A DNA stretch of 64,000 nucleotides from Defluviicoccus sp. (lineage in GTDB: Bacteria > Pseudomonadota > Alphaproteobacteria > MPNO01): the NCBI GenBank assembly GCA_022823775.1, contig JAJEHI010000135.1, positions 100,266 to 164,265 of the forward strand, in the 5' to 3' direction. The position numbers and the translations under genes are program-made. The notes beneath the pieces were generated by a model, which saw only the letters and a program-made list of their open reading frames with translations, searched no databases and was not told the origin of the DNA. Positions within the stretch are counted from its first letter, which is position 1, and every line of letters begins with the position of its first letter. This document shows positions 26,766-34,265 of the stretch, piece by piece.

Positions 26766-29144
26766 CTAAGACGCCTTGGCCGATTGAAGGGCCTGCCACA
26801 CGCTTTCCGACGTGACCGGCATGTCGATATGGTTGACGCCGTGCGAGCGGAGCGCATCGACGACCGCGTTGACGACCGCGGGCGGCGCGCCGATCGCCCC
26901 GATCTCGCCGACGCCCTTGGCGCCGAGCGGGTTCATCGGACAGGGCGTCACCGTATGGTCGAGATCGAAGCTCGGCACCGTATCGGCCCTCGGCAGGGTG
27001 TAGTCCATCAGCGAACCGGTGAGCGGCTGTCCGTTCTCGTCGAACACCGCCCCTTCCATCAGCGCCTGGCCGATTCCGTGGGCGAGTCCGCCATGGACCT
27101 GCCCCTCGACGATCATCGGGTTGACGATGTTGCCGACGTCGTCGACGGCGGTGAAGCGTTCCACCGAGACAGATCCGGTCTCCGGGTCGACCTCCACCTC
27201 GCAGACATAGGATGCGAACGGGAAGTTGAAGTTGACCGGATCGAAGAACGCCTGTTCGTCGAGCCCGGGCTCCAGCTCTTCCAGAGGGTAGTTGTGCGGC
27301 ACGTAGGCCGCGAACGCCACCTCGCCGATGGAGATCGTCCGGTCGGTGCCCGAAACGGTGAACGTGCCGCTGTCGAACTCGATATCGTCGACCGAGGCTT
27401 CGAGCAGGTGCGACGCGATCTTCTTGCCCTTGTCGATGATCTTGTCCATCGCCCGGTCGATCGCGCTGCCGCCCACCGAGAGCGAGCGGGAGCCGTAAGT
27501 TCCCATACCCATCACCGCCCGGTCGGTGTCGCCCTCGACGACCTCGACGTTCTCGAGCGGCACGCCGAGCTTGTCGGTGACGAGCTGGGCGAAGGTGGTC
27601 TCGTGCCCTTGGCCGTGGTTGTGGGTGCCGGCGAACACCGTGACGGTGCCGGTCGCGTTGAACCGGACCTGCGCCGACTCGTAGAGACCGGCCCGTGCCC
27701 CAAGCTGGCCCGCGATGGCGGACGGCGCCGCCCCGGTGGCCTCGATCGGCGCGGCGATGCCGATCCCGCGAAGCTTGCCGTCGGCCTCGGACGCGCTTCT
27801 GCGCGCGGCGAACCCGTTCCAGTCCGACTTCTCCAGCGCGATATCCAGCGCGCGTTCGTAGGAGCCCGAATCGTAGAGCAGGGCGACCGGCGTCTGGTAA
27901 GGGAAGGCGTCCGCGGCGATGAAGTTCCGCTTCCTGATCTCAACCGGGTCGATCCCGGTCGCCCGCGCCGCCTCGTCGATCACCCGCTCCAGGAGATAGG
28001 TGGCTTCGGGCCGGCCGGCGCCGCGCAGGGCATCGACCGGGGAGGTGTTGGTGAACACCGCCTTGACGTTGCACGAGATCGCCGGGGTCGTGTACTGGCC
28101 GGCGAATAGCGTCGCGTAGAGGAAGGTCGGGATCAGCGGCGCGAAGGCCGACAGATACGCCCCCATATTGGCGACCGTGTTGACCCGGAGGCCGGTGAAC
28201 TTGCCTTCTGCATCGAGAGCGAGCTCGACCTCGGTCACGTGGTCGCGGCCGTGCGCGTCGGTCACGAAGCACTCCGTCCGCTGTCCCAGCCAGCGGACCG
28301 GCCGCTCCAGTTTGCGCGAGGCCCAGCAGATGATCGCGTATTCGGCATAGGGCGCGACCTTGGATCCGAATCCGCCCCCGACGTCGGGCGCGACCACCCG
28401 GAACTTGTGCTCCGGCTGGTTGAGCACGAAAGCGCCGAGCAGCAGCCGCATCGCGTGCGCCGCTTGGGCGGTGCAGTAAAGGGTCAGCTTCTCCTCGCCC
28501 TTGTCGTACTCGGCCACCGCCGCGCGCGGCTCCATGGAATGCGGGATGATGCGCTGGTTCACGAGTTCCAGCCGCGCGGTGTGCGCCGCCGCCTCGAAAG
28601 CCGCGTCGACCGCCTCGGCCGCTTCCTCGCCGGGGAAATCCCAGTCGAAGCAGAGATTGTTCGGCGCTTCCTCGTGGATCTGCGCCGCGCCGTCCCGGTG
28701 CGCCGTCTCCGTGACCGCCGCCGCGTCGAGAGGCCGGTAGTCGACCTCGACCAGCTCGGCGGCATCCGCCGCCTGTTCCGCGGTCTCGGCGATCACCGTG
28801 GCGACGATCTCGCCGACATAGCGCACCTTGCCCTGGGCGATGACCGGCCATTTGGGCTCGACCATCGGGGTGCCGTCCTTCGACGTGATACCCCAGCCGC
28901 AGGGCAGGCCCCCGAGCCCGTCCGCATCGGCGTCCGGGCCGGTGAGCACGCAGACCACGCCGGGCGCGGCCTCGGCCTTGGACGTGTCTACCGATCCCAG
29001 AGCCGCGTGGCCGTGGGGCGAGCGCAGCATGTGCGCGTGGAGCTGTCCGGCCCGCACCTCGTCGTCGGTGTAGGCGCCGCGGCCGGTCAGAAAGCGGAAG
29101 TCTTCCTTGCGCTTGACGGAAGCGCCAATTCCTCCCTCAGGCAT
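26766..29144 (-). CDS. coxL: Mo-hydroxylase large (molybdopterin) subunit, form II-type
   Basis: A 792-residue molybdopterin-binding catalytic subunit. The active-site loop reads ALRGAGRPEA near residue 372. Form I CO dehydrogenases carry AYRCSFR there, so this is a form II-like enzyme and probably not a CO oxidiser; the substrate could be an aromatic or N-heterocyclic compound or aldehyde. The catalytic glutamate is in GAKGVGEIGAIG near 746, as in xanthine oxidases. An N-terminal KEDFRFLTGRGAYTDD motif and a GHETTFAQL segment are also typical. Confidence 0.9.
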   Translation of the reverse strand: MPEGGIGASVKRKEDFRFLTGRGAYTDDEVRAGQLHAHMLRSPHGHAALGSVDTSKAEAAPGVVCVLTGPDADADGLGGLPCGWGITSKDGTPMVEPKWPVIAQGKVRYVGEIVATVIAETAEQAADAAELVEVDYRPLDAAAVTETAHRDGAAQIHEEAPNNLCFDWDFPGEEAAEAVDAAFEAAAHTARLELVNQRIIPHSMEPRAAVAEYDKGEEKLTLYCTAQAAHAMRLLLGAFVLNQPEHKFRVVAPDVGGGFGSKVAPYAEYAIICWASRKLERPVRWLGQRTECFVTDAHGRDHVTEVELALDAEGKFTGLRVNTVANMGAYLSAFAPLIPTFLYATLFAGQYTTPAISCNVKAVFTNTSPVDALRGAGRPEATYLLERVIDEAARATGIDPVEIRKRNFIAADAFPYQTPVALLYDSGSYERALDIALEKSDWNGFAARRSASEADGKLRGIGIAAPIEATGAAPSAIAGQLGARAGLYESAQVRFNATGTVTVFAGTHNHGQGHETTFAQLVTDKLGVPLENVEVVEGDTDRAVMGMGTYGSRSLSVGGSAIDRAMDKIIDKGKKIASHLLEASVDDIEFDSGTFTVSGTDRTISIGEVAFAAYVPHNYPLEELEPGLDEQAFFDPVNFNFPFASYVCEVEVDPETGSVSVERFTAVDDVGNIVNPMIVEGQVHGGLAHGIGQALMEGAVFDENGQPLTGSLMDYTLPRADTVPSFDLDHTVTPCPMNPLGAKGVGEIGAIGAPPAVVNAVVDALRSHGVNHIDMPVTSESVWQALQSAKAS

Positions 29145-29168
29145 GTCCTGCCTCCCGGGTCAATTGTC

Positions 29169-29645
<477 letters not shown>

Positions 29646-29821
29646 CTGTGACCCTCCTTGAGTCAACAACGCCGTCCGCCGACTACCGATGCGCGGCGAC
29701 AAGGCCGAACGGTCCAATTCCGGAAGGCGTTTCCCTTCCCTGTTCTGTTGCGCCGCAGTATCCCGCCCGAACCCGGAGGGGTCAAGGCGCGGAGACGCGG
29801 CGAGGCTGCCATTCGGGGGCT

Positions 29822-30397
29822 TCAGGCGAGCACGATGACGAGGACGATGACGGCGATGGCGACCAGACCGCCGATCCAGACGGCCGGGCTCAGCCCTTCC
29901 GATTTGGCCTGCGCCGAGGGCGCCTCCGCCGGTTCCTCGACCTCCGCCTCTTCCTCCGCCCCGCCGACCGCCTCGGCGAACTTGTCGAAGAAATCGTCCG
30001 CCATCTTGCGCGCTGTCGAATCGATCAGCCGGGAGCCGATCTGGGCGAGTTTGCCGCCGACGGTCCCGTTGGCCTCGTATGTCAGCAGCGTGCCCGCCCC
30101 GTCGTCCGCGAGCTGCACCTTGGCGCCGCCCTTGGCGAAACCCGCGACGCCGCCCTGGCCCTCGCCGCTGATCGTGTAGCCGTTGGGCGCGTCGACATCG
30201 GAAAGCTGGACCTTGCCGGTAAACTTGGCGGTGACCGGGCCGACCTTGGAGGTCACCCTGGCGCTGAACTCGGTGTCCGAGGTCTTGTCGAGCGACTCGC
30301 AGCCCGCGATGCACTGCTTGAGGATCTCGGGGTCGTTGAGCGCGTCCCACACCTTCTGCCGCGGCGCCGGGATCCGCCGCTCGCCGGTCATCTCCAT
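29822..30397 (-). CDS. coxG: CoxG-like SRPBCC protein with C-terminal membrane anchor
   Basis: A 191-residue protein with an SRPBCC (START-like) fold: [19 protein letters not shown], the typical CoxG opening, then [20 protein letters not shown] Glu/Ala linker ([16 protein letters not shown]) leads to a hydrophobic helix at the end ([19 protein letters not shown]). CoxG anchors CO-dehydrogenase-type enzymes to the membrane. ATG 30397 is chosen for the GGAGGCAGCG site; an ATG 12 nt upstream is the other option. It is 176 nt upstream of coxS on the same strand. Confidence 0.87.
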
Positions 30398-30479
30398 CGC
30401 TGCCTCCAACGACTGTTGCGGCCAACCGGCCGCAACCTAGTGCCTCGACCGGCACCGGGCAAGCAAAGGGCGGGCAAGA

Positions 30480-32643: not shown

Positions 32644-34167
32644 TCAGCCGCAGCGGATGACGAAGGCGTGCTTGCCGACCGTCGTTTCGACTTCCAGATC
32701 GCCTTCGGCGACGCGCCACTTGTCCGATCGAGCGCCGTCCGCCTCCACGGTGCACTTTTCCGGCACGACGTTCGTAACCCTGAACGTCGTCGGCTCGCCG
32801 GCCGTTCCCGGGGCTCCCGCGTCGGTGGCGACCGCGAGGATGCGCCGTTCGACGTCATAGGCAGCCTGCGAGAGGCACACTCTGGGAAAGTCGACGCCAT
32901 GGACGGTGGGCTCCACAAACTTGCGGAGATTGGGCTGATTGATCAGATCCCACCAGGACCCGGGCCGCGCGACCTCGGCCAGCGCGGAGGTGGCGTTGAG
33001 CTGGCCCCTTGGATGCTCCTCGTTGAGATGGTAGCCCCATGTGAATTCGCCGGTTTCGTCGTCCCAGGCCGGCTCGTGATTTTCCTCCATGAAGCCCTTC
33101 AGCCGGGCGAAAAGATCGTCGTCTCCCAACTCGCGCGCCATGAATGCGGAGCACAGCAGTTGCAGAACGGAAAAATCTCCCGGCGGTATGACGATCGGGT
33201 CGGTCCCGCGCCAACCCAGCTGATCCATCGCGACATTGAACAGCTCCCGGCAATCGTCCCGCTTCAGCGCCAAAGCTCCCATCGCCGGGAGGAGTTTCAT
33301 TCCGGCCAGACGTTCATTGGTGTGATGCACCGGGATCAGCGGGTCGTAATAGACCGTTACCGGACCGCTTATCTTGCCGTCGCGCATCGAGAAATAGTTG
33401 GGACGGGCGTAATCCCACCACGCATCGAACAGCGTCCGAAAATCGCTGCCGTAGACCACGTCGTGGAGGCTCAGACCGAGCCCCGCGCGGGCCATTCATA
33501 ACGGCCAAATCTTGGTATTTTCGCAGTGTATTCCTTCCGGCCGCCTGGACATCTGGGCGGTCAGGTGCTCGGCGATGCGCGTATGGGTCCAGGTGAACGT
33601 ATCCGCGCCGTTACGGACGATATCGAAGGGCTCGTTCCATTTCTCGTCGCCGGTGACATAGGCGTGGAAGCCCAACAGAACCAGGAAATCGCCCTTGTAG
33701 AACAGGTTGCCGTCGCATCCCACCGGATCCATCTGGAGACCCCATGGCTCGACGCCGTTGGCGGTCCAGCCCGGCACGTCGTATTTGCCGCGCAGAAAGG
33801 GCGGAATCAGGTTTTCGTACCAGACCTCGGGATATTGCTCCCGCTTCGGATCGTCGCCAATCTGGTCGAGCCAGTCCTTGGGCGCCCAATAGCCGGTATA
33901 GCGCGCAACGAGTTCGTCCAGTATCCGCCCGTAGACCTCCCGCCAGGCCGGCGTGCGATCGGCCATGACGGCCATCGCGAAGCTCGATTGCACCAGGTCC
34001 ATGCGGTGCCAGGACCGCATGGGCGCGCCTGTGATATTGTCCCAATGCGGGTGCGGCTGGCCGTCCTTGTCCCAGTTGTCCGGCGTCGTCGCCTTGCGAT
34101 AGAGGTAGCGGAGCCATCCCCTTGAGCGGTCGGAGGTGCTGGGATATCCGTGAACCAGGCTCGCCAT
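32644..34167 (-). CDS. Candidate selenocysteine-containing linalool dehydratase/isomerase (LinD)-like protein
   Basis: One gene of 507 residues, split for a standard caller into two ORFs (33496-34167 and 32644-33495) by an in-frame TGA at 33496-33498 (codon 224). Sequence on both sides reads as one (alpha/alpha)6-barrel-type protein of the LinD-like family: ...GIHCENTKIWPL-U-MARAGLGLSLHD. C215 and the TGA stand nine residues apart, the CX8C spacing of the two LinD active-site cysteines. A 7-bp hairpin with loop GGUCU starts 11 nt after the TGA (see separate entry). ATG 34167 follows GGAGGGGC. A C-terminal beta-rich extension (about 90 residues) follows the barrel. The normal stop is TGA at 32644. 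Family assignment is motif-based; Sec insertion is inferred. The alternative is a nonsense-mutated gene, but the matching hairpin argues against it. Confidence 0.7.
33466..33498 (-). promoter_or_regulatory. Candidate bacterial SECIS element (UGA plus hairpin)
   Basis: In the minus-strand mRNA the UGA (33496-33498) is followed by 11 nt. Then comes a perfect 7-bp stem GGGGCUC/GAGCCUC closing the five-base loop GGUCU (33466-33484). E. coli fdhF, from memory, has an 11-nt spacing and a GGUCU apical loop recognised by SelB. Here the loop GGU begins 18 nt after the UGA, in phase, as in fdhF. The stem is also compatible with the coding frame (GGG CTC GGT CTG AGC CTC). Confidence 0.8.
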
Positions 34168-34265
34168 CGGTTGCGCCCCTCCGGATTCGGCTCCAGGCAG
34201 GTCCAAAGCCTAACGGAAATCGAATTGCACCGGAATAGCGGACGCCGGCGTCGCCGATGGGAGGA

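Follow-up and report, generated by a model that had tools for sequence, protein, structure and literature searches.

An in-frame UGA at a catalytic-cysteine column

Can a bacterial gene that is interrupted by a single stop codon encode one intact selenoenzyme? This question is raised by a gene of the linalool dehydratase/isomerase (LinD/Ldi) family in a 64,000-nucleotide (nt) stretch of DNA from Defluviicoccus sp. (assembly GCA_022823775.1, contig JAJEHI010000135.1, positions 100,266–164,265; hereafter the window). The gene occupies 32644–34167 on the minus strand and comprises 507 codons and a stop codon when its in-frame TGA (33496–33498, minus strand) is read through. Since this UGA lies at the column of the second catalytic cysteine, is followed by a conserved hairpin, and occurs in a genome with selA, selB, tRNA-Sec and selD, insertion of selenocysteine (Sec) is predicted at this codon, and the product is very probably a 507-residue selenoenzyme.

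The minus-strand frame from 34206 to 32644 is open save for the single TGA, which cuts it into 236 codons (counted from TTG 34206; 223 from ATG 34167) and 283 codons. The upstream TTG at 34206 is also open, and ATG 34167 was chosen as the start by comparison with relatives; database relatives such as P0122 begin at residue 14 of P0001, whose numbering counts from TTG 34206 and exceeds that from ATG 34167 by 13, in agreement with this choice. One match to the Pfam Ldi profile (PF18566) spans the TGA (residues 158–384; 50.3 bits against a cut-off of 26.1), whereas the first half taken separately scores 27.3 bits and the second half gives no match. The single match across the TGA indicates that both halves constitute one protein. 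The original prediction had proposed a LinD-like gene split by one in-frame TGA, nine residues past the Cys of a GIHC motif, and both points are borne out: the TGC of Cys215 (228 in P0001) is located at 33523–33525 on the minus strand, nine codons upstream of codon 224 (237 in P0001).

The active-site cysteines of LinD are C171 and C180 according to the titles of the PDB mutant entries 6tft and 6tfr; the same pair is numbered 170 and 179 in PMC6600392. In the alignment, the two cysteines fall on columns 228 and 237, with the UGA on the second. The nine-residue spacing given in the original prediction is thus shared by the two thiols of LinD and by Cys215 and the predicted Sec224, the latter taking the place of C180. 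Our protein search scored 7996 candidates, 1344 of which reached E ≤ 0.001, and the best 120 of these were listed and aligned (P0002–P0121; approximately 450–565 residues, with 43–66% identity over 82–97% of the window protein). Cysteine occupies column 228 in all 120 and likewise column 237, the codon-224 column at which an alignment of homologues had been proposed as a check.

The window protein belongs to the LinD/Ldi family by fold and profile. Its predicted barrel is closest to LinD of Castellaniella defragrans (PDB 5g1u, 5i3t, 6tfr), with approximately 18% identity, and it has extra C-terminal strands (approximately residues 434–519) outside the LinD-aligned part. Asp70 shows no variation, and at least 90% of 40 rows have Tyr at column 76, where the window protein has Phe; the spacing of six matches that of Asp38/39 and Tyr44/45 in the LinD active site, a comparison made by spacing rather than by residue-level alignment. 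In contrast, the active-site His129 of LinD (His128/129; for its role, see PMC12455561) is not kept: it corresponds to Asp173 in the window protein, and its column is Phe in 47 of 58 Sec rows and 36 of 49 Cys rows. The capping disulfide C48–C101 of LinD, whose role is described in PMC6600392, has no counterpart either, as there is no cysteine before residue 164. For these two reasons, we do not call the protein a linalool dehydratase; the earlier name, linalool dehydratase/isomerase-like, holds for fold and family, while the implied activity on linalool is unsupported.

UGA forms in other genomes

Genome contigs were scanned for the pattern C-E-N-T-K-x-W-P-x-UGA, which yielded 60 matches on 59 stretches from other genomes in at least five phyla. 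Approximately 0.5 matches would be expected by chance (a hand estimate assuming equal base use, 40 specified bits and 5 × 10^11 positions), and the family motif follows the UGA in frame at all 60. Going by the titles of their records, the stretches derive from Acidimicrobiia (22), Alphaproteobacteria (11), Gammaproteobacteria (11), Chloroflexota (2), Entotheonella of the Tectimicrobiota (2), Myxococcota (2), other Pseudomonadota (2) and other Actinomycetota (1), with six unplaced; nearly all of the genomes are metagenome-assembled. The gene runs off the fetched stretch upstream in nine cases (L036, L040, L041, L052, L055, L057, L074, L076, L079) and downstream in six (L029, L031, L044 plus strand, L046, L067, L078). 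Short upstream frames are found in L044 plus strand and L066, where the gene is spread over two or three frames (L124, L125). The same pattern with UGA gave no match in viral contigs.

Within the genus, genome G001 carries a gene that is 88% identical and keeps the TGA, and the row of Defluviicoccus sp. bin129 (L035) in the tree described below is identical to that of G001; three further same-genus genomes and one same-family genome gave no match to the gene. Among homologues in 49 genomes, every listed in-frame stop is TGA. Of 11 loci placed on the protein, six have the stop at column 237, and three have stops at both 228 and 237 (L117, L119, L121); no stop occurs in L122, which is an N-terminal piece, or in the Cys form L127. 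Additional stops lie at residue 16 of L123, upstream of its likely start, and at residue 412 of the frame-broken L119. Eight matches were obtained from 395 genomes drawn from the Acidimicrobiia, the class of G409, with TGA at 237 in five, at both columns in one (L131), Cys at both in one (L128) and Ser and His in one (L133). From 385 genomes of the window's class, six matches were obtained; of the four that are near full-length, only that of the window has the TGA, and three have no stop.

The alphaproteobacterial genomes G407, G415 and G423 (loci L022, L030, L040 and others) hold three, four and four UGA copies, respectively, one of those in G423 being broken over frames. In L133 (G682), Ser and His replace the two catalytic cysteines (SENTKVWPEH), and the TAG listed for this locus lies outside the aligned part of the protein; judged from these residues, the protein possibly has a different chemistry.

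A conserved hairpin downstream of the UGA

A predicted bacterial Sec insertion sequence (bSECIS) hairpin is located at 33466–33484 on the minus strand. It begins 11 nt past the UGA and consists of a stem of seven base pairs (bp), GGGGCUC/GAGCCUC, and a GGUCU loop at 33477–33473, with 18 nt between the UGA and the loop. The position, the loop and the seven pairs are as originally described, but the stem, which had been called perfect, contains a G·U rather than a Watson–Crick second pair. The bSECIS model quoted in PMC13188914 specifies a G in the first two loop positions, a spacing of 16–37 nt, a loop of 3–9 nt and a stem of 4–16 bp; the window hairpin, with its 18-nt spacing, 5-nt loop and 7-bp stem, fits it as classical bSECIS selenoproteins do.

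The hairpin was compared over 58 distinct flanks, aligned without gaps, from 62 places including the window and G001; L029 (too short), L070 (containing N) and two duplicates were left out. The seven-pair stem (columns 15–21 and 27–33) pairs in 95.8% of 406 cells, in comparison with 20–58% when slid by 1–3 columns, and is kept across the flanks through compensatory changes. Column 18, a free third codon place, shows C-G in 39 flanks, U-A in 10, G-C in 8 and U-G in one, and column 19 shows C-G in 56 and U-A in two (L036 and L046, which encode Phe instead of Leu and Lys instead of Arg). The second pair remains G·U in all 58, while the outermost pair is broken in 17. None of 500 shuffles reached the observed value for cells paired, cells changed on both sides or the covariation score, and RNAalifold recovered the inner six pairs unaided.

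Codon constraint was assessed by synonymous recoding with each gene's own codon use. The loop with at least six pairs is present in 57 of the 58 genes, against 1.3 expected (mean 2.2%), the exception being L066 with a different loop letter; for the window gene alone, recoding yields this combination in 0.3% of 4000 draws. The Gly codon of the loop is GGT in 58 of 58. All four genes with two UGA codons have the seven pairs and the loop, whereas the five distinct Cys genes for which DNA was available form 3–4 pairs and lack such a loop.

Selenocysteine machinery

All four components named as a check in the original prediction are found in the window genome (G000; 4.8 Mb, 198 contigs), each over its cut-off: selA (572 bits, C147:27974), selB (457 bits, C147:29374), tRNA-Sec, encoded by selC (75 bits, C147:32274), and selD (311 bits, C195:12824). 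The tRNA-Sec cut-off is unspecific by itself, as a second match in the same genome scores 47.5 bits and five of 14 control genomes pass; the 75-bit match stands apart, and ARAGORN calls a tRNA-SeC with anticodon tca there. None of the three formate dehydrogenase-like matches in G000 (E ≤ 1e-60) is interrupted by an in-frame stop over its matched length. Thus, this common selenoprotein does not explain the Sec system there, a statement limited to formate dehydrogenase because a search for other selenoproteins of G000 was not made.

The 59 UGA loci are distributed over 52 genomes or records; leaving out L035 and L079 gives 50, of which 49 were included in the search for sel genes. selB exceeds its cut-off in 42 of the 49, in comparison with two of 14 control genomes. 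A formate dehydrogenase alpha match with one in-frame TGA occurs in 25 of 51 genomes searched, all 25 scoring below the family's curated cut-off; such matches are an independent sign that UGA is a sense codon in those genomes. As a separate observation, G033 and G053 (L082 and L083) have a clear tRNA-Sec (70 and 68 bits) and carry the Cys form of the gene.

Predicted decoding, chemistry and alternative readings

In the predicted scheme, SelB would bind the hairpin, which begins 11 nt downstream, and deliver Sec-tRNA to the UGA; in the absence of selenium, translation would end at this codon and yield a fragment of 223 residues. The full protein would fold as a LinD-like barrel whose pocket holds Cys215 and Sec224. 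Selenols are ionised at neutral pH and, once oxidised, are restored more readily than thiols. Tentatively, Cys215 and Sec224 may do the work of C171 and C180 by passing a proton to, or attacking, a substrate that is unsaturated or carries an alcohol group. In LinD, all four cysteines were swapped to Ala and to Ser, the variants being folded yet inactive, and the oxygen-sensitive enzyme requires its cysteine pair to be reduced (PMC6600392).

The alternative that survives best retains the selenoprotein and changes its function, and we regard it as possible but rather unlikely: Cys215 and Sec224, or two Sec residues, would form a selenenylsulfide or diselenide and act on peroxide, disulfide or similar, in a LinD-like barrel that has lost its hydratase work. 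According to PMC13188914, numerous prokaryotic selenoproteins described so far are similar to thiol oxidoreductases or contain redox motifs; in addition, the LinD His129 is not kept, and the forms with two UGA codons would suit a diselenide. The inventory in PMC13188914 also includes families that are not plainly redox, such as a MerB-like lyase (SaoL) and an arsenite methyltransferase.

Two further readings were considered and dropped. It is very improbable that some other amino acid is inserted at the UGA, or that the first half is itself the product, without selenium. Low-level read-through at UGA occurs in bacteria, and the N-terminal half has a start of its own and an open frame. Against this reading stand cysteine at the column in all 120 of the best homologues without a stop, the stops seen at the two cysteine columns, which are all UGA and never UAA or UAG, the covarying hairpin, and selB or tRNA-Sec in most of the genomes; half a barrel would also be unlikely to adopt the modelled fold. 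A pseudogene or sequencing error, to which one stop might point in a gene whose genome is a draft of 198 contigs, has a negligible probability, as family residues are kept on both sides of the UGA, and error is in effect excluded by the TGA of the 88%-identical same-genus gene and by 60 more occurrences of UGA at this column in other genomes.

Several observations weigh against the Sec reading or its proposed chemistry. In the hairpin analysis, 33 of 500 shuffles reached the observed value for pairs with a change on both sides, and 386 did so for further pair types; two of the five covariation measures thus do not stand out, and kinship among rows inflates the others. As a control, the five Cys genes are not matched, since they belong to more distant branches and encode Gln instead of Arg beside the loop. 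Within an 81-nt stretch, the window hairpin folds no better than shuffles (z −0.88), which makes the single-sequence fold weak evidence, and the comparative evidence carries the claim. selB is under its cut-off in seven of the 49 genomes (G420, G428, G430, G439, G444, G449 and G454). Three of these (G428, G430 and G439) have a clear tRNA-Sec (69–76 bits), and G420 has a partial SelB (225 bits) with tRNA-Sec below the cut-off; in G449 the tRNA-Sec is marginal (48.3 bits), and in G444 and G454 it is below the cut-off. With regard to the chemistry, the replacement of His129 by Asp173, or by Phe in most relatives, and the missing cap disulfide argue against a direct transfer of the LinD mechanism, and PMC13188914 anticipates a redox role for the majority of selenoproteins still to be characterised.

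Relatives with two UGA codons and descent of the Sec form

Four relatives have UGA at both cysteine columns: L117 (G447), L119 (G431), L121 (G436) and L131 (G846). They are predicted from their sequences to carry two selenocysteines nine residues apart. In L117, L119 and L121, the second UGA is enclosed by a stem, TCTGGCC/GGCCGGA. As a SECIS element for the first UGA, this stem was considered and set aside as unproven: the first two places of the L117 loop lack a G, and the 3′ arm is also present in L063, which has a single UGA.

A quick maximum-likelihood tree was built from 107 proteins, of which 58 are Sec forms (the 53 of the 62 places with sufficient length, and five more) and 49 are Cys forms (44 of the 120 database proteins and five loci). 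The Sec label needs three changes on this tree, and the starred branches force three. The Cys proteins closest to that of the window among the best 120 of 1344, P0002–P0006, sit inside a mostly alphaproteobacterial Sec group. This placement reads as a replacement of Sec by Cys, on a tree that does not itself determine the direction.

A predicted selenoprotein family

These proteins, which occur in at least five bacterial phyla, are predicted to constitute a new selenoenzyme family. An inventory of 119 prokaryotic selenoprotein families was published in May 2026 (PMC13188914), and its complete Table 1 has no LinD, PF18566 or similar entry, which accords with the original statement that no described selenoprotein was known in this family; among bacterial selenoproteins with a classical bSECIS, the LinD-type family would thus be an addition. 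It is also not among the nine new families in the excerpt of the deep-Sep paper. Literature text searches joining LinD, linalool or PF18566 with selenoproteins returned nothing relevant, and none matched selenoproteins with Acidimicrobiia, Entotheonella or Defluviicoccus; bioRxiv and most subscription papers are outside the scope of these searches, so that a report elsewhere is possible. NCBIfam likewise offers no model for the protein at a threshold of E ≤ 1.

If the prediction is true, it adds to the 2026 inventory an absent selenoprotein family, and one that belongs to a lyase/isomerase family. More speculatively, the members could form a widespread group of selenium-dependent lyases or isomerases that use Sec for acid–base or covalent chemistry on C–C and C–O bonds rather than for redox reactions, some with two Sec residues in one active site, and could be a main reason for genomes such as that of the window to keep a Sec system. 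Since the role of the same cysteine is known from LinD mutants, the question of why selenium is used instead of sulfur could be directly tested in natural Cys, Cys–Sec and Sec–Sec enzymes of one family.

Database fragments illustrate how such genes are lost in annotation, entered as truncated proteins. A search with the first half returned 419 short proteins at E ≤ 0.001; those listed, 120 in number, comprise 91 that end at residue 236, 22 that end at residue 227 and seven that continue. Accordingly, 113 of the 120 stop at one of the two cysteine columns, the ends being known at the protein level. Two of the cut proteins, P0225 (Acidimicrobiales) and P0188 (Entotheonellaceae), are publicly named hypothetical.

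Gene neighbourhood

The next gene downstream on the same strand encodes a DUF169 protein (PF02596; 31792–32508, minus strand). A DUF169 gene adjoins the Sec gene in the window and in the same genus (L081 and L035, probably one organism) and directly precedes the Cys form in G597 (L128), amounting to four of 113 loci including the window; it is a possible functional partner, and we treat it as a lead only. The neighbourhood gave no clue to the substrate: among 351 open frames round the UGA loci, no group is found in more than eight loci apart from the commonest ones, which by their positions represent the gene's own halves and an antisense frame. Further downstream in the window, on the same strand, genes resembling coxG and those for the 2Fe-2S and large subunits of a molybdenum hydroxylase are located at 26766–30409 (minus strand).
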